NCBI GenBank assembly: GCA_003159675.1
Contig: PLQC01000046.1
Location: forward strand, 1 to 33,317
DNA: 33,317 nucleotides
Source: Limisphaerales bacterium
Lineage (GTDB): Bacteria; Verrucomicrobiota; Verrucomicrobiia; Limisphaerales; BOG-1460
Direction: 5' to 3'
Position numbers and translations under genes: made by a program. Under the pieces are notes generated by a model, which did not search any database, was not told the origin of the DNA, and saw only the letters and a program-made list of their open reading frames with translations. Shown piece after piece: positions 9,596-33,188 of this stretch (positions are counted from its first letter, which is position 1; every line of letters starts with the position of its first letter).

Positions 9596-10414
9596 CTATG
9601 GCCCTGTTGACGTCAACAGAAGGAGGAAGATCCCGATGGCCAGCGCGATCCGGTACCAGCCAAACGCGCTGAAGGTGTGGGTCTGCACGTAGCGCAGCAG
9701 CCACTTGACCGCGATGAAGGAAACGATCGCCGACACCACGAACCCCAGGAACACCATGTCCCAACGCTCCGGCGCCGCGCCGACAACCGGGTGGCGCAAC
9801 GTTTTGTGGATCTCATATCCGCTCGCGGCAATCATCGTCGGAATGCTGACGAGAAACGAAAACTCCGTCGCGAGCGGCCGATTCAAGCCGAGGATCAGGG
9901 CGAGCAGGATTGTCGCGCCCGAGCGCGAGGTGCCGGGAAACACCGCCGCGATGATCTGGCCCAGGCCGACGGCGATGGCCACGTTCCAACCCACCACGTC
10001 CTTGCGGGGCTTGCCGCGCAGCCAGTATTCGACCGCGAGAAACAGGATCCCGCCGATAAGCAACGCCACGGCGATGGGCTTGGGGTTCTTTTCCAGGTCC
10101 CAGTGGGCTTTTGTGACCAGGAATCCGCCGACCCCGGTGATGAAAAACGCGACGACGATCTTCGCCAGATAGTCGCGCACGGCGGGATCGTTCCATTCGA
10201 AAATGAACTGGTGAAAACGCTGGCGAAACAATGGGATGACGGCCAGGACGGCCCCCAACTGAATGACGACGGTGAACATCTCGCTGGCCTCGAAGCGGCT
10301 GATCTTTTCGAGCCATTGTTCGGCGATCAACAAATGGCCCGTCGAGGAAACGGGAATGAACTCGGTGATTCCTTCAACGAGACCCAGGAAGAGTACGGCG
10401 ATCCAATCGGGCAT
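9596..10414 (-). CDS. uppP: Undecaprenyl-diphosphate phosphatase
   Basis: MPDWIAVLFLGLVEGITEFIPVSSTGHLLIAEQWL and VFPGTSRSGATILLALILGLNR signatures of UppP/BacA. Confidence 0.95.
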   Translation of the reverse strand: MPDWIAVLFLGLVEGITEFIPVSSTGHLLIAEQWLEKISRFEASEMFTVVIQLGAVLAVIPLFRQRFHQFIFEWNDPAVRDYLAKIVVAFFITGVGGFLVTKAHWDLEKNPKPIAVALLIGGILFLAVEYWLRGKPRKDVVGWNVAIAVGLGQIIAAVFPGTSRSGATILLALILGLNRPLATEFSFLVSIPTMIAASGYEIHKTLRHPVVGAAPERWDMVFLGFVVSAIVSFIAVKWLLRYVQTHTFSAFGWYRIALAIGIFLLLLTSTGP

Positions 10415-10552: not shown

Positions 10553-10963
10553 TCACCTCCCCTTCTTGCCCAGGAACGAAGCCAGGGCGCCTTTGGAATC
10601 CTCCTCGTGCTGGTGCACTTTCAACTGGCCGAGGATCGAGTGCCAGCCGATGTAGATCTTGTGCCATTGGTTTTCCACGTTGCGCAACGCGCCTTCGTTC
10701 ATTTCGCCGAGATACCGCAGGGAGGGCGTGTTGCCGATGAGGGTGTGCACTTCCTCCTTGCTCGGCGAACTGACCTCGACGGAGGCCAGGATGATCTCCA
10801 GTTCCTGGACCAGGATGCTTTTGGTTTCGAGGAACTGGTTTTCATCTTCGGCGCTGAATTTCTTGCCGCGGGCGAGATTGACGAACTGGTTGAACTGTTT
10901 CCAACACTCCAGATAGTTCTCCATCTGCGCGATCAATTGTTCCAGCTTTTTGGTTGTGCTCAT
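10553..10963 (-). CDS. Conserved-looking hypothetical protein
   Basis: 136-aa ORF with coding-like composition, co-directional and tightly spaced (9 nt) after the 10973-11281 gene. Confidence 0.65.
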   Translation of the reverse strand: MSTTKKLEQLIAQMENYLECWKQFNQFVNLARGKKFSAEDENQFLETKSILVQELEIILASVEVSSPSKEEVHTLIGNTPSLRYLGEMNEGALRNVENQWHKIYIGWHSILGQLKVHQHEEDSKGALASFLGKKGR

Positions 10964-10972
10964 AAGCGCGTA

Positions 10973-11281
10973 TCAATTCATGGACGACGTGGTGGACTCG
11001 GTTTTCGGCGACAGAAAGACGATGGCGCCGCCGCGCATTTCCCGGGCGGTGATGCGAAGGCTGGCGAAATGAAGGTTGAACTCGGAGAGCGGCATTTGGG
11101 CTGCACGGGCCTCGCGAAACAGTCGCAACACCTCGACGGCTACCTCGTGCAACAGCGCCGGCGGATACCCGGAGGCAACGGTCGTCGCCACCACGTTCCC
11201 CTCCCGGTCCACCGTCATGCTCCCGGATGGCAGCCGTTGAACGCCCGCGCCCGTCCTGGAAAATAATTTCAAGAATCCCAT
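10973..11281 (-). CDS. Minimal Roadblock/LC7-like protein
   Basis: MGFLKLF start; GSMTVDREGNVVATTVASGYPPALLHEVAVEVLRLFREARAAQMPLSEFNLHFASLRITAREMRGGAIVFLSPK follows the strand-helix-strand order of RLC7 domains. Confidence 0.6.
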   Translation of the reverse strand: MGFLKLFSRTGAGVQRLPSGSMTVDREGNVVATTVASGYPPALLHEVAVEVLRLFREARAAQMPLSEFNLHFASLRITAREMRGGAIVFLSPKTESTTSSMN

Positions 11282-12333
11282 GATGCCACAAGTTGCCTCG
11301 TCTGCTCCAGCATCCGCTGGGTTTCCGTGCTGAGCGGCCACGCCACCAGAAAGGTTTTCTGCTCCCAGGGCAGCAAAACGAGACGCCGTTCGAGGCTGCT
11401 CCCCTCGATGTGCGACAGCGGCCCCGCTCCGAGCCGTTCGCTCAATCGCTTGCAGGATTCACCCGCCTGGCGGACCCACCTGGCCGCCTCCTCCCCCGCC
11501 TGCATGCCCCAGCCTTCGGCCGCGCCCGACGCGGGAATGGAGACCACCCACTCGGCGCCTTCGCGGGTCAGCACTGAAAGCTTCCAGACGGTCTTCCGCT
11601 GTTCCACTACCTCCTTCGAGCCGGCCGCGCCAGGACTCGCAAATTCATCCATCGCCTGTGCCATCTCGAGCAGCAGGGCGTTGGCAGGCTTGTTGATCGT
11701 CCGCTCGTGGTCCGGCTCAGCCGGCAGATTCTCGAACGTGCCGGACCTCCATTCCAGAATCCGTCGAAACGCCATTTCACCGGCCGCTCCTTCGGCTTCG
11801 GCATGGATCAACTCTCCCCCCGCAATCCAGATTTTGCCGACGAGCGCCCCATGCGTGATGCGCAGGAGGGTCGAGCTCTGGGACAGGCATTCCATTTGAA
11901 TGATGTCCATGAGGCTCTTGCTCTGTACGCCGCGGAAGCCGCCGACCACGTCGCGTCCAAGCAACGATTCCAGGCACTCGAGGAACATCTGCATGTTCTG
12001 CTGCGTTTCGGGCTTGAGCCAGAACAAATCCACCCCCAACGCGTAGGCGCGCGAGCGAAATTCCTCGTCCTGCATCGCGGTCATCACCACCGTGCGCAAT
12101 TCAGGAAACCGGCGGCGGACAATGGAAAGCACTTGCAAGCCATCCATCTTCGGCATCTTCAAATCGCAGATCAACAGCCGGAACGGCTCCGCCTCGAGCA
12201 ACGCCAGCGCCCGCGCACCGGTCGTGGCAGTGTGAATCTCCGGCTTGCTGGGAAGCTGCGACAGTATCTCCTTGTACATCACCAGCACGTCGGACTCGTC
12301 ATCCAATAGCAGGATTTTGTGGTGTGCTTCCAT
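11269..12333 (-). CDS. Response regulator receiver fused to a DUF4388/PATAN domain and an RLC7-like C-terminal region
   Basis: KILLLDDESDVLVMYKEIL..LLICDLKMPKMDGLQVL..VVMTAMQ (REC); GFRGVQSKSLMDIIQMECLSQSSTLLRITHGALVGKIWIAGGELIHAEAEGAAGEMAFRRILEWRSGTFE (DUF4388/PATAN). Confidence 0.88.
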   Translation of the reverse strand: MEAHHKILLLDDESDVLVMYKEILSQLPSKPEIHTATTGARALALLEAEPFRLLICDLKMPKMDGLQVLSIVRRRFPELRTVVMTAMQDEEFRSRAYALGVDLFWLKPETQQNMQMFLECLESLLGRDVVGGFRGVQSKSLMDIIQMECLSQSSTLLRITHGALVGKIWIAGGELIHAEAEGAAGEMAFRRILEWRSGTFENLPAEPDHERTINKPANALLLEMAQAMDEFASPGAAGSKEVVEQRKTVWKLSVLTREGAEWVVSIPASGAAEGWGMQAGEEAARWVRQAGESCKRLSERLGAGPLSHIEGSSLERRLVLLPWEQKTFLVAWPLSTETQRMLEQTRQLVASWDS

Positions 12334-12665
12334 AGCGGCTCGTCAACGGCTAACTCTCCGATAACGTAAACTCAAGCTCAAAAGGGCCTTCACTCCCCTG
12401 CAAGCGAAGCAAACCGTATTCCCTTCCGCGGGGGCTGGTCGCTTTCCTGCTGGCTCCGTGTGAAAGGGCCGGTTGGTTGGATGTCGATCGCGCAGACATA
12501 TCCCCGTGAAAAAAGCCCGGAGCGATCCGCGGACTTCAATGTGGACACCAGTCCAGCGTTGAGACAATCCTCCGCAACCCGGTCACACAGAGGAATCACG
12601 GCAGTCCCACCGTTCACTCCGTCCGACTGATCCTTCACTTGTCCAAACAAACAAACCGCCTCAAC

Positions 12666-12681
12666 TGGCATAGTTCCTGCA
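12666..12681 (+). promoter_or_regulatory. Candidate sigma-54 (-24/-12) promoter
   Basis: TGGCATAGTTCCTGCA: GG and GC dinucleotides in the canonical GG-N10-GC spacing, about 200 bp upstream of the 12878 gene. Confidence 0.55.
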
Positions 12682-12877
12682 CAGTTTTGCTTCCACAAAG
12701 TCAAAGTTCGGCACCAATCAACATGAATCGTGCATCGGTGAACGGCGGAAGCAGGCTGCAAGCGGTGGCGGAACTCCACGCATTTGGATTCCGCTCACGG
12801 ACTCAAACGATCATCGATGGCACGACAGGTCCGGGCCCCCGCAGTGACATATGAGCGCGCCACCTCACCGAAGTCAT

Positions 12878-14662
12878 ATGTTTGCTTTTCTGAAAAACAT
12901 CATCCTCGGCAAGCCGGTCGAGGACCGCGTCGGCGAAACGCAGGAACCTGCGCCGGCTCCCGCACGCCCCGCAGTGAACGGCCTCCCGCTCCGGCCGCAG
13001 CCCAGGACTCATGCCAACGGAAATGGAAACAGCGTCGAAGTCTCTTTGCAAAACGTGCTGGGCGCGTTCCCCCTCGAACTCAAAGGCAGAATCCGGCAAT
13101 CCGACGTGGGCGAGGCAACGGTTTCCATTCCCATGGAGAAAGTCCTGCCGCAGTTGGGAGCGGGGGCTGTAAAGATTTCTTTCGGAGAACTCCGCCGCGC
13201 CGCGCCGCAACTCTTTACCTCGGGAAGCGACTGCGACCAGATTATGGTGACATTGCCCCTGAATGAAATTCTGCGCCAGGTTGACCCGGCTCTGCTGCCC
13301 AGGCGCCAGAACCAAAAACACATTGCAGTTCCTGACGAAATCAGAAGCCCCTTCGGCGACACCGGCGACGGATTGATCTTCTCGGTAGGCCCGACGAAGG
13401 CGGAAACGCCCGCGCCTCCGCGCGCGACCAGCCCGGCCGCCCCGCGTGCAACCACCCCGGCTGCTCCACGCGCGATTACCCCGGCTGCTCCTGTTCCCCC
13501 GGCGCCGGTTCCCCAAAAACCTGCTCCGCCCGCTCCGACGTCCCCGGCGAAACCGCCGATGACGCAACTGACGCCGCTTCAGCCGATTCCTTTTCGCGGT
13601 TCAATTGGTTCCACACCCACGCCGCCCGCGCCCGTTGTAAAACCGGCTGGTTCTCCTCCAGCCAGCATGGTTCCGCCGGCGTTCCACGGCGTGGGTGCCG
13701 TCAGTCCGCCCCTGACGCCCCGGGAATCGAGCCTGCCCCGTCCTCCCAGGGTGGCTCATGATCCCATTCCCCAGCCGCCCAAGCCCACGCCCGATGTCCC
13801 GTCGCTGCACGTTCCGTTGATGACCCTGACCGAGGGCTGGCCCGAGGCGTTGCGCCACGAAATCGTGCAATTGAATCTGACGGACGCCAATGTCGCCCTG
13901 CCGGCGCAGGCGGTGGAACAGGCCCTCAAGCGCGGCAAGGTGGCGTTTCCGTGGAAAGTGTTGCGCTCCTGGATCAAACCCGCGCCGCTCCCCACCGTTT
14001 CGGTGCACGACAATGCGGCGCTCGAACTGCCGCTCAAAGTCATCGCGCCTCTGTTTCTGACCCGCCAAAAGGACGCCGGCAAGTCGCAACAAAGAGTGGC
14101 GATCGACGAAAACATCCCGAATTTATTCTTCGGTCTTCCGCAACCGGGCGCGCCCTCCGCCGACGGCGGCGCCGCGGCGCCAAGCCATGCGGTCAGCAAG
14201 CCCCTGGACACAAATTACTACGTCTGGAACGACAGTTCGGATACCGCGCAGGTGGCGGAGTCGGACTTCAAGCGCAAATCGGGGGCTTCGCCGGGAACGA
14301 CCTTCGTCACACGTTGTGCGACCCCCAATGAAGTGGCTTCCCGCGCGGCGGCCCTGGATGGCGTGGCCGGCGCGCTGATCGCGTTGCCGGACGGCTTGAT
14401 GGTCGCGAGCCATCTCTCCGCTGATTTGAACGGCGACACGCTGGCGGCGTTCCTGCCGCACATTTTCGGGAAGGTCAGCCAATGCACCAAGGAGTTGCGC
14501 ATGGGCGAACTCAACAACCTGAACTTCACGGTCGGAAATGTCCCCTGGAAGATTTTTCGCGTGAACGCCATTTTCTTTGCGGCCTTTGGCCGCCCCGGCC
14601 AACCGCTGCCAACAGCCCAATTGGCCGAGCTGGCCGCGGAACTGGACAGGAAAAAACAGTAA
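12878..14662 (+). CDS. Two copies of an unassigned ~105-aa domain, Pro/Ala-rich linker, C-terminal Roadblock/LC7 domain
   Basis: MFAFLKNIILG start; duplicated VEVSLQNVLGAFPLELKGRI.../LHVPLMTLTEGWPEALRHEI... blocks; C-terminus FVTRCATPNEVASRAAALDGVAGALIALPDGLMVASHLSADLNGDTLAAFLPHIFGKVSQCTKELRMGELNNLNFTVGNVPWKIFRVNAIFFAAFGR (RLC7). Confidence 0.85.
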   Translation: MFAFLKNIILGKPVEDRVGETQEPAPAPARPAVNGLPLRPQPRTHANGNGNSVEVSLQNVLGAFPLELKGRIRQSDVGEATVSIPMEKVLPQLGAGAVKISFGELRRAAPQLFTSGSDCDQIMVTLPLNEILRQVDPALLPRRQNQKHIAVPDEIRSPFGDTGDGLIFSVGPTKAETPAPPRATSPAAPRATTPAAPRAITPAAPVPPAPVPQKPAPPAPTSPAKPPMTQLTPLQPIPFRGSIGSTPTPPAPVVKPAGSPPASMVPPAFHGVGAVSPPLTPRESSLPRPPRVAHDPIPQPPKPTPDVPSLHVPLMTLTEGWPEALRHEIVQLNLTDANVALPAQAVEQALKRGKVAFPWKVLRSWIKPAPLPTVSVHDNAALELPLKVIAPLFLTRQKDAGKSQQRVAIDENIPNLFFGLPQPGAPSADGGAAAPSHAVSKPLDTNYYVWNDSSDTAQVAESDFKRKSGASPGTTFVTRCATPNEVASRAAALDGVAGALIALPDGLMVASHLSADLNGDTLAAFLPHIFGKVSQCTKELRMGELNNLNFTVGNVPWKIFRVNAIFFAAFGRPGQPLPTAQLAELAAELDRKKQ

Positions 14663-14674
14663 GCACAGGACGCT

Positions 14675-15289
14675 ATGGCTATCATCAATCAGGCAACGAA
14701 GGAATTGCAGGTCAAAATCGTATACTACGGCCCGGCCATGGGCGGGAAAACGACCAACCTCGTGCAGGTGCACGACCACGTGCAAACCGCCGCCGGCAAC
14801 AAGGGGAAACTCGTCTCGCTGGCGACCAGCTCCGACCGCACCCTGTTCTTCGATTTTCTGCCGATCGAAGCCATGTCGATCAAAGGGTTCAAAACCAAGT
14901 TTCAGCTCTATACCGTGCCGGGCCAGGTGATCTATAACACCACGCGCCAGCTCGTCCTGCGCGGCGTGGACGGCATCGTGTTCGTGGCCGATTCGCAATA
15001 CGACAAAATGGCCGAGAACGTGGAGAGCTTTCAGAACCTGGAAGACAACCTGCGTTCCCTCAAACTGAACCTCGCCGATATTCCTTACGTGCTCCAATAC
15101 AACAAGCGCGATCTGCAGAACGTCGCACCCGCGGAATACATGGAGTTCCTCTTGAACAACCGCGAGGTGCAGGTCCCCTCCTTCACTTCCGTCGCCCATA
15201 AATGCGAAGGCGTCTTCGAGACGCTTAACATGATTACGCGTATGCTGCTGAACAAGTTCATCAGCCAAAACACGCCGCAGTACGCATGA
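14675..15289 (+). CDS. mglA: MglA-like Ras-superfamily small GTPase
   Basis: KIVYYGPAMGGKTTNLVQVH (P-loop), FKTKFQLYTVPGQVIYNTTRQLVLRGVDGIVFVADSQ, PYVLQYNKRDLQN (NKRD box). Confidence 0.92.
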   Translation: MAIINQATKELQVKIVYYGPAMGGKTTNLVQVHDHVQTAAGNKGKLVSLATSSDRTLFFDFLPIEAMSIKGFKTKFQLYTVPGQVIYNTTRQLVLRGVDGIVFVADSQYDKMAENVESFQNLEDNLRSLKLNLADIPYVLQYNKRDLQNVAPAEYMEFLLNNREVQVPSFTSVAHKCEGVFETLNMITRMLLNKFISQNTPQYA

Positions 15290-15290
15290 C

Positions 15291-15773
15291 ATGGCCACCT
15301 TGCCCCAACTCCTCGAGGAGGATATCCAGCTTTTCGACGACGCGCTGCGCGAGCTGCTGAAGCAGAGCGACGCAACCACGGCGCTCGTCATCGACAAGGG
15401 CGGCTTCCTCCTCACGCAGCAAGGCGACGGGCGTCAATTTGACCTCACCACCATCGCCGCGCTCGCCTCCGGCGCCTACCTCGCCAACCAGACCATCGCC
15501 AATCTCGTCCACGAAACCAATTTCAACAGCGTTTACCAGCACGGCGAAAAATTCAGCATGTTCACCCTGTCCGTGGACGAACAGTCCATGCTGGTCGTCA
15601 TCTTCCAGGCCGGCGTCAGCGTCGGCGCGGTCAAATACTTCGCCACACCGGCCGCCGACAAGATCGCCCGGCAATTGAAAAACGCCCAGGAACGGGATCC
15701 AAACCTCGGCCTGGATCTGTCCATGCTCAACCTCGCGGACCCCAGCGAAGTGTTCAAACGCAAGCGCGCCTGA
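15291..15773 (+). CDS. MglB-like Roadblock/LC7 domain protein
   Basis: LRELLKQSDATTALVIDKGGFLLTQQGDGRQFDLTTIAALASGAYLANQTIANLVHETNFNSVYQHGEKFSMFTLSVDEQSMLVVIFQAGVSVGAVKYFA. Starts 1 nt after the mglA-like stop codon. Confidence 0.85.
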   Translation: MATLPQLLEEDIQLFDDALRELLKQSDATTALVIDKGGFLLTQQGDGRQFDLTTIAALASGAYLANQTIANLVHETNFNSVYQHGEKFSMFTLSVDEQSMLVVIFQAGVSVGAVKYFATPAADKIARQLKNAQERDPNLGLDLSMLNLADPSEVFKRKRA

Positions 15774-31071: not shown

Positions 31072-31848
31072 ATGACTGAACCGCCGTTGATCCTGATTTC
31101 GCCGAGCATTGAAAAGGAAGGTGTCGAGTTCCATGACAGATCCATCAGCCTCTCGGAGGCCTATCCGCGCGCCGTGGCGCACGCCGGGGGAATCCCCCTC
31201 GCCCTGCCCGTGGGCACCTCCCGGGAATTGATGGCCGAATGCGTGCGCCGCGCCGACGGAATTCTTCTCACCGGAGGAGACGATATTGAACCCGGCCTTT
31301 ACGGAAACGGACTTCCCACGAAATTACGCCGGACGGTGGGAACGACCCCGGACGGTGGAGAGCGCGATTTGCGGGAGCTGATATTGATCGACGAGATTTT
31401 CCGGCAGCGCAAGCCGCTGCTCGCGATCTGCCGGGGGCACCAGCTCCTGAACGTGGCCCTGGGGGGAACACTGATCGTCGATATTCCCACGCAGGTGCCG
31501 AAGGCCATCAACCACAGCCGGATGGACCGGCGAAGCGAAAAGGTGCACGAAGTGCGATTGACACGGCAATCGTTACTGTCCAAGATCATCGGTGAGCGAA
31601 TACTGGGCGTGAACAGCACGCACCATCAGGCTGTGGGCCGGGTCGCCGAGCCGTTGCAGGTGACCGGGACAACCGACGATGGAATTGTGGAGAGCATGGA
31701 ACTGAAGTCCGAGGCGGCGCGCCTCCTTCCTTTCCTGCTGGCAATACAGTTTCATCCCGAGCGCCTGACGGATCGCTACGCCGAACATGGAGCGATTTTT
31801 TGCGCATTTACACAGGCGTGTGCCTTGCATCGTAAAAAGAACCTATGA
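31072..31848 (+). CDS. Gamma-glutamyl-gamma-aminobutyrate hydrolase / class I glutamine amidotransferase-like (peptidase C26)
   Basis: GILLTGGDDIEPGLYG, RKPLLAICRGHQLLNVALGGTLIVDI, VNSTHHQAVGRVAEPL, LAIQFHPERL. Confidence 0.9.
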   Translation: MTEPPLILISPSIEKEGVEFHDRSISLSEAYPRAVAHAGGIPLALPVGTSRELMAECVRRADGILLTGGDDIEPGLYGNGLPTKLRRTVGTTPDGGERDLRELILIDEIFRQRKPLLAICRGHQLLNVALGGTLIVDIPTQVPKAINHSRMDRRSEKVHEVRLTRQSLLSKIIGERILGVNSTHHQAVGRVAEPLQVTGTTDDGIVESMELKSEAARLLPFLLAIQFHPERLTDRYAEHGAIFCAFTQACALHRKKNL

Positions 31849-33188
31849 AGGGCAACATATTATTGGTGGATGACGCCGCGGACATCCGCGAGCTGCTGGC
31901 CAACATTTTGCGCGACAGTTATGCCGTCACCGAAGCGGACAGCGGTGCCGCCCTGAAGCAGGCTTTCCAGGAACAACAGCCGGATGTCGTCCTGTTGGAC
32001 ATCAAACTGCCCGATGCCGACGGGCTGGACCTGCTGCCGCAAATCAAAAAGCAGTGGCCGGAAACGGAGGTCATCGTTCTGACCGGCAACGCCACGTTTG
32101 AAGCCGCCGTCGAGGCCACCAAACGCGGCGCGTATCACTTTCTGAACAAGCCGTTCGACCCGCAGGGACTGCTCGTCACGGTCGAGCGCGCGCTGGAGCA
32201 CAAGCAGCAGAACGAAGAGAACAGCACCCTGCGCCGCGCGCTCTCCACCATGAGCGGAGGCACCGCGCCCGTTTTCCAAAGCCTCGTCATGCAGACCGTC
32301 GTGCGCACGGTCGAACGCGTCGCGCCCAGTGATATTTCGATTCTCATCACGGGCGAAAGCGGCACGGGCAAGGAAGTCATCGCGGACCTGCTCCATGCCC
32401 TGAGCCCGCGGAGCAAGGGCAAAATCATCAAGATCAATTGCGCCGCGCTGCCGCGTGAACTCATCGAAAGTGAATTGTTCGGCTCGGTCAAGGGCGCCTT
32501 CACCGGCGCGCACGCGGACCGCGAAGGCCTGTTCCGGCAGGCGGAAGGCGGCACGCTGTTTCTGGACGAAATCTCCGAAATGCCGGTGGACACGCAAAGC
32601 AAGCTGCTCCGCGTCCTGCAGGACCAGGAAGTCCGTCCCGTGGGCGGCAAGGTGAGCTACAAGACCAATTGCCGCATCGTCGCCGCCACCAACCGCCGGA
32701 CGGAGGAAGCCATCAAGGATGGAAAGCTCCGCGAAGACCTGTTCTATCGCATCAGCGCCATCTCCGTTCATCTGCCCCCGCTGCGGGAGCGGCGCGAAGA
32801 CATCATGCCCCTGGCAAACGCCTTCCTCAAACGCTTCGTCGCCCAGGCCAACCGCCCCATCCGCGGATTCACGCCCGAAGCCGTGGACCGCATCACGGGT
32901 TTCGAGTGGCCGGGCAACGTGCGCCAGTTGCAGAACGAGGTCCAGCGCGCGGTCCTCTTGTGCGAGGGAGGGGACATCGACTCCACCGACCTGTCCATCA
33001 CCAGCGTGCCGACGGATACGGAAGGCGTTCACGACACCAATTTCACCCTGCTGGAAGGCGTCGAACGCAACGCCATCGTCCAGATGTTGAGGGAAACCGG
33101 CGGCAACAAACTGGAAACCGCCAAGCGCCTCGGCATCGGCCGCCAGACACTCTACAACAAAATCAAGGCATACGGAATTGAAGTCTGA
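31845..33188 (+). CDS. Sigma-54-dependent NtrC-family response regulator (REC-AAA+-Fis HTH)
   Basis: ILLVDDAADIRELLANIL; ITGESGTGKEVIADLLHALS; ESELFGSVKGAFTGAHADREGLFRQAEGGTLFLDEISEMP; C-terminal NKLETAKRLGIGRQTLYNKIKAYGI. Start overlaps the preceding stop (ATGA). Confidence 0.95.
   Translation: MKGNILLVDDAADIRELLANILRDSYAVTEADSGAALKQAFQEQQPDVVLLDIKLPDADGLDLLPQIKKQWPETEVIVLTGNATFEAAVEATKRGAYHFLNKPFDPQGLLVTVERALEHKQQNEENSTLRRALSTMSGGTAPVFQSLVMQTVVRTVERVAPSDISILITGESGTGKEVIADLLHALSPRSKGKIIKINCAALPRELIESELFGSVKGAFTGAHADREGLFRQAEGGTLFLDEISEMPVDTQSKLLRVLQDQEVRPVGGKVSYKTNCRIVAATNRRTEEAIKDGKLREDLFYRISAISVHLPPLRERREDIMPLANAFLKRFVAQANRPIRGFTPEAVDRITGFEWPGNVRQLQNEVQRAVLLCEGGDIDSTDLSITSVPTDTEGVHDTNFTLLEGVERNAIVQMLRETGGNKLETAKRLGIGRQTLYNKIKAYGIEV

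Follow-up and report, generated by a model that had tools for sequence, protein, structure and literature searches.

An MglA-like GTPase gene flanked by roadblock (RLC7) genes and by a divergent response-regulator operon raises the question of whether these genes form one G-protein switch and, if so, what that switch would control. The locus comes from an uncultured Limisphaerales bacterium of the Verrucomicrobiota (assembly GCA_003159675.1). The window, meaning the whole stretch of DNA that was analyzed, spans positions 1–33,317 of contig PLQC01000046.1.

Six genes and four roadblock modules

The original prediction had described a six-gene divergent cluster, and all six open reading frames were confirmed at 10553–15773 of the 33-kb window. 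The rightward operon consists of dupRLC, mglA, and mglB, and the leftward operon of recPATAN, rlcS, and p136. The features are as follows:

10553..10963, minus strand: p136, 136 aa, with invariant residues in ECWKQF, FLExK, QxxE, SxR, WH, and GQLK
10973..11281, minus strand: rlcS, 102 aa from an ATG start, a minimal roadblock protein with a short N-terminal MGFLxxF tail
11269..12333, minus strand: recPATAN, with REC, PATAN/DUF4388, and a C-terminal roadblock-like domain
12851..14662, plus strand: dupRLC, 603 aa, with two copies of a ~110-aa domain separated by a Pro/Ala-rich linker, and a C-terminal roadblock
13022–13366 and 13796–14131, plus strand: the two copies of the dupRLC duplicated domain (hhalign of the copies, AlphaFold2)
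14315–14659, plus strand: the dupRLC C-terminal roadblock domain (Pfam in homologues, AlphaFold2, Foldseek)
14675..15289, plus strand: mglA, a GTPase of Group 1 type by its motifs (GxxxxGKTTN, R55 in G2, TVPGQ, and NKRD)
15291..15773, plus strand: mglB, a roadblock protein matching NCBIfam MglB at 5.7e-19, below that model's curated cut-off, and Pfam Robl_LC7 at 9.8e-8, above cut-off

Of the gene limits first proposed, the existence of the six frames stood, the minimal roadblock gene was corrected to 10973–11281, and dupRLC may start at the internal ATG at 12878, where homologues such as that of locus L045 begin. The proteins had been read as a duplicated-domain protein with an RLC7 module, an MglA-like GTPase, an MglB-like RLC7 protein, a REC-PATAN phosphoreceiver protein with an RLC7-like C-terminus, a minimal RLC7-like protein, and a 136-aa protein without an assigned family; each description agrees with the evidence below.

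MglA matched the MglA chains of Myxococcus xanthus (4e-61) and Thermus (2e-58). Among the best 80 of its 378 relatives, the MglA motifs were fixed or nearly fixed: R55, beside the G2 threonine, and TVPGQ occurred in 80/80 sequences, as did N143, K144, and D146 of the G4 NKxD motif. The G2 arginine, TVPGQ, and NKxD are the residues that PMC4316618 lists for Group 1. MglA is thus assigned to the Group 1 type by motifs, with its catalytic motifs intact; the MglA+MglB tree holds close homologues only, and the assignment rests on the motifs. An adjacent MglB gene was present in the window and in nearly all loci. It begins 1 bp after mglA in the window and within 0–39 bp of mglA in 76/76 loci measured. 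By analogy, MglB is the likely GTPase-activating partner of MglA.

The two dupRLC copies align with one another as a genuine tandem repeat (98.4% probability in hhalign, E 4e-15, 27% identity), and both fold confidently in AlphaFold2 (pLDDT about 95), with the linker modeled at low confidence. Neither Pfam nor a PDB sequence search matched the duplicated domain. Foldseek of dupRLC did not name its fold either, the top 50 matches listed all being of the roadblock family. At the C-terminus, Pfam detected Robl_LC7 in 38/38 homologues, and the model showed the canonical α-β-β-α-β-β-β-α roadblock arrangement, again with a pLDDT of about 95.

RlcS had no Pfam match. It was modeled as β-β-α-β-β-β (pLDDT 84.8), corresponding to the core β2-α-β3 without flanking helices, and its top 50 Foldseek matches were all of the roadblock/LC7 family, including MglB and LAMTOR. 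The rlcS start overlaps the recPATAN stop by 13 bp, and exactly this overlap in 59/63 loci suggests translational coupling of the two genes. RecPATAN itself matched Pfam REC at 1.7e-19 and DUF4388/PATAN at 2.1e-14, with DUF4388 detected in 46/46 homologues. All 46 homologues keep D11, D12, D57, and K107, which makes phosphorylation of the REC domain plausible. Its C-terminus appears roadblock-like from profile matches, at E=0.0013 against a PDB Robl_LC7 chain and with Pfam Robl_LC7 in 4/32 homologues (best 0.0014). In one related locus (L115:1621–4532), recPATAN and rlcS are tandemly duplicated.

For p136, there was no Pfam or NCBIfam match above cut-off and no PDB match below E=0.1. The protein, aligned in 38 loci at 50–75% identity and conserved in the order, is probably helical, judging by its sequence. 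A bacA/uppP gene (9596–10414 in the window) lies beside p136 in a gene order conserved in about 35 loci. ExbB/ExbD-type genes lie directly beside p136 in two loci (L140:3379–4479 and L141:6911–7961), and ExbB/ExbD-like genes also occur within a few kb of mglA in loci L128 and L130.

Comparing the roadblock families pairwise with hhalign yielded no match, probably because the alignments are shallow, so we used AlphaFold2 models and PDB profiles for roadblock assignment instead. On this basis, four roadblock modules surround one GTPase, as the original prediction had proposed with its "up to four": Pfam identifies those of MglB and dupRLC, the AlphaFold2 models and Foldseek those of dupRLC and rlcS, and profiles only that of the recPATAN C-terminus. 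The possibility that the putative RLC7 proteins are unrelated folds was tested, and roadblock folds or profile matches were found instead.

Co-occurrence and candidate promoters

A scan of one genome per species yielded the 378 MglA relatives from which the best 80 were fetched. Named matches were from Verrucomicrobiota, mostly Limisphaerales/Pedosphaera. Among these 80, p136, rlcS, recPATAN, and dupRLC were all present and syntenic in 51/55 loci with at least 5.5 kb of upstream sequence, which is far more than chance. Co-occurrence in other genomes was also tested across 38 genomes of the order. Each of the 22 MglA-positive genomes had a dupRLC match, beside mglA wherever the contig reaches, and each had both p136 and rlcS (22/22; Fisher 7e-7 and 1e-7, respectively). 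In G003, G005, G010, G026, G028, and G033, the recPATAN/rlcS/p136 set, or part of it, lay on another contig than mglA, and there p136 and rlcS stayed together. Four genomes had p136 without an MglA match: dupRLC is cut by the contig end in G027 and G035, G009 is 57% complete, and G029 is the fourth. The p136 of G029 (C6:27382–27783) is diverged, is found without rlcS, and adjoins argG. The components of the block make up two divergent operons that occur consistently within one genome.

Across 195 genomes of the phylum, the duplicated domain was found in 16/16 MglA-positive genomes and in 3/179 others, using a profile built from seven of the 195 genomes plus the window; leaving out the profile-building genomes, the counts were 8/8 and 3/179. 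In G151, G188, and G123, the domain lay on another contig than MglA, so the association is more than a shared neighborhood. In distant loci, too, PATAN proteins adjoin mglA or the gene for the duplicated domain (PAS-PATAN in L129, REC-PATAN in L138, and also in L152). The MglB match was convincing in most, not all, of the distant loci. Phylum-wide, the core thus comprises MglA, MglB, and the protein with the duplicated domain, frequently together with a PATAN protein. Both p136 and rlcS were found in the order, whose genomes were those covered by the searches for them.

Some loci carried irregularities of content or label. One MAG has two mgl clusters (L107 and L044, both JAJPHR01 records). 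In the second of these, a PATAN protein lies on the plus strand upstream of dupRLC, within a 742-aa frame that begins like an unrelated secreted protein. Three MAGs labeled Akkermansia muciniphila or Methylacidimicrobium (L087, L117, and L076) carry typical clusters nested among Limisphaerales, and these labels are probably wrong.

Transcription of both operons appears to start from sigma-54-type promoters, for which the region between them contains two candidate elements:

12408..12423, minus strand: sigma-54-like −24/−12 element GGGAATACGGTTTGCT, towards recPATAN, scoring 11.7 in the window
12666..12681, plus strand: sigma-54-like −24/−12 element TGGCATAGTTCCTGCA, towards dupRLC

Judged by shuffles and spacing controls, at a threshold picked after the sites had been seen and across 63 related loci, the rightward element scored at least 12.2 in 54/63 loci against 4.0 expected (1–5 at other spacings), and the leftward element did so in 42/63 against 4.0 expected, both at the strict GG-N10-GC spacing; other spacings on both strands gave 1–8 loci. 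An initial looser threshold was dropped, since its 60 observed against 43 expected was close to chance. The site at 12666–12681 is the only one scoring at least 12.7 on either strand of the whole window. Leftward, the consensus reads GGAAC in place of the classical GGCAC. A scan of the intergenic region for sigma-70 promoters and terminators found none. A sigma-54 activator gene lies at 31845–33188 in the window.

Linkage to pilus motors

Control of type IV pili is suggested by the neighbors of the block, which adjoins pilus-motor genes in related bacteria. A PilU-type (PilT/PilU-family) ATPase gene lies directly 3′ of mglB, on the same strand, in 13/60 loci with enough downstream sequence. 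The PilU label needs six changes on the MglA+MglB tree, where all 13 loci fall within one 20-row clade; a single gain with losses is thus the likeliest history, and repeated gain is also possible. This neighboring PilU has diverged, sharing about 50% identity with the PilT-linked copy of the same genome. A PilB/GspE-type ATPase gene lies directly upstream of dupRLC in L128 and L130, from another family of the class. In L129, from the same phylum but outside the class, such a gene lies directly downstream of mglB and is followed by a PilC/GspF protein. PilU or PilB/GspE therefore adjoins the block in three lineages.

Within the order, a PilU orthologue was present in 20/22 MglA-positive and 6/16 MglA-negative genomes (Fisher p=0.001, uncorrected for ancestry), an association confounded by shared ancestry. 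PilT-family ATPases, near-universal at 37/38 genomes, were uninformative. At the window locus, no pilus gene is adjacent; the same genome has a pilT-pilU tandem on contig C165, with pilB elsewhere, away from it. Directly after pilU in this genome is a gene for a 158-aa protein (L125:6416–6892) that has no Pfam match and resembles a degenerate receiver domain. We rejected a flagellar target, as the 97%-complete window genome had no FliG match and FliG occurred in 10/22 MglA-positive against 7/16 MglA-negative genomes.

On balance, it is more likely than not that the block controls the motor of a type IV pilus (type IV filament). It is unlikely that its target is instead a type II secretion system or a type IV-filament machine of another kind, distinct from a motile pilus. 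The ATPases of L128–L130 score best against PilB yet fall under its cut-off, and that of L129 passes the GspE cut-off, so the machine of these loci could be a secretion filament; in L135, GspF-family and pseudopilin-like genes lie no more than about 5 kb from mglA. Against secretion, PilB models outscore GspE in 3/3 of the PilB/GspE cases, and PilU, which adjoins mglB in 13 loci, is an ATPase for retraction and lies outside the type II system.

A Myxococcus-like front-rear polarity module that steers several surface structures, with pili as one output, seems quite unlikely, even though a Group-1-type MglA accompanied by further roadblock and REC proteins recalls MglA/MglB/MglC/RomR (PMC9481161, PMC12719032). 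None of RomR, RomX, RomY, MglC, and SgmX is evident among the genes of the cluster. We consider it very unlikely that the output lies outside appendages altogether, in transcription or envelope metabolism, with the proximity to pilus genes incidental. Such an output would suit the bacA/uppP gene that adjoins the block in many loci, the ExbB/ExbD genes of L140 and L141, and the other roadblock/GTPase systems (conservons) that couple to histidine kinases rather than pili; however, the bacA adjacency looks like inherited gene order, and adjacency to pilus or filament ATPases recurs in three lineages.

Known MglA systems and a proposed mechanism

The block is a variant of the MglA/MglB switch with an unusual partner set, as originally proposed: MglA and MglB are joined by extra roadblock proteins, REC-PATAN, and p136. 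With the Myxococcus xanthus and Thermus MglA-MglB systems it shares R55, TVPGQ, NKRD, and an adjacent MglB, as well as extra roadblock and REC partners and type IV pili as the likely output. Unlike in those systems, the partner genes here sit together in two divergent operons, REC shares a protein with PATAN and a roadblock-like domain, and dupRLC, p136, and rlcS have no recognized counterpart. Cyanobacterial PixG and its relatives likewise combine REC and PATAN in one protein, and PATAN regulators there bind PilB1. RecPATAN differs in its C-terminal roadblock-like domain and in being operonic with a small roadblock gene, divergent from a GTPase switch. Actinobacterial conservons (Cvn) also place a roadblock protein and an MglA-like GTPase in one cluster. 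Conservon membership was rejected, as the present cluster has no histidine kinase (CvnA) or CvnC, and its GTPase has TVPGQ and the G2 arginine rather than Group 2 motifs.

The locus had also been called uncharacterized. This stood for the component set, which we did not find in the literature, but not for the PATAN-mgl neighborhood, which is not new: PATAN proteins near mglA/mglB are already reported in PMC4316618, citing Makarova 2006, and PATAN near Group 1/5 MglA is a shared feature of such neighborhoods (Makarova 2006; Wuichet and Sogaard-Andersen 2014). In its available portion, the 2014 survey lists Verrucomicrobia only for Group 5 and does not describe dupRLC, p136, rlcS, or the PilU/PilB linkage. 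A Methylacidiphilum globin-roadblock paper mentions an mglAB-like pair (PMC4476040). A search of open-access literature, which most subscription papers fall outside, found no description of the six-gene block, its two families, or a Verrucomicrobiota pilus link; the family libraries searched gave no match for either family, p136 or the dupRLC duplicated domain. Most of what is understood about the Ras-like MglA switches of bacteria comes from Myxococcus, whose partner genes are scattered. In the present locus, by contrast, one compact, co-inherited block combines the GTPase with its roadblock partners, a phospho-input, and the two families. This narrows the candidate MglA regulators and effectors to a short list open to testing, and the largely uncultured Verrucomicrobiota would gain a candidate for small-GTPase control of pili.

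If the block does regulate a pilus motor, MglB would speed GTP hydrolysis by MglA, and phospho-signals would enter via the REC domain of recPATAN. RecPATAN, rlcS, and p136 might act as a unit, given their apparent translational coupling and shared travel, setting the MglA nucleotide state much as the RomR/RomX GEF does; RomR/RomX is the MglA GEF, and RomY aids MglB (PMC9481161). DupRLC could bind MglA or MglB through its roadblock domain, its tandem domain linking MglA-GTP to the PilB/PilU motor ATPase in a SgmX-like role. In M. xanthus, MglA-GTP with SgmX promotes polar localization of PilB (PMC7519303), and the Synechocystis REC-PATAN protein PixG binds PilC and PilB1 (review PMC12288463); the present block brings a PATAN input and an MglA switch together. 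The output would be polar placement of pili, or only pilus activity. The GEF and effector roles are drawn by analogy. A Verrucomicrobiota MglA pathway in which dupRLC is the standing MglA-GTP effector on PilB/PilU, and recPATAN-rlcS-p136 a phosphorylation-controlled exchange complex replacing RomR/RomX, is a tentative proposal, possible though doubtful as a whole.

We also rejected the idea that a chemosensory array is a required input, since CheW occurred in 15/22 MglA-positive against 6/16 MglA-negative genomes (p=0.10). One genome has a compact chemosensory cluster (G000:C52:36859–39905) with three CheW domains, one in an 818-aa frame, which could feed the REC domain.
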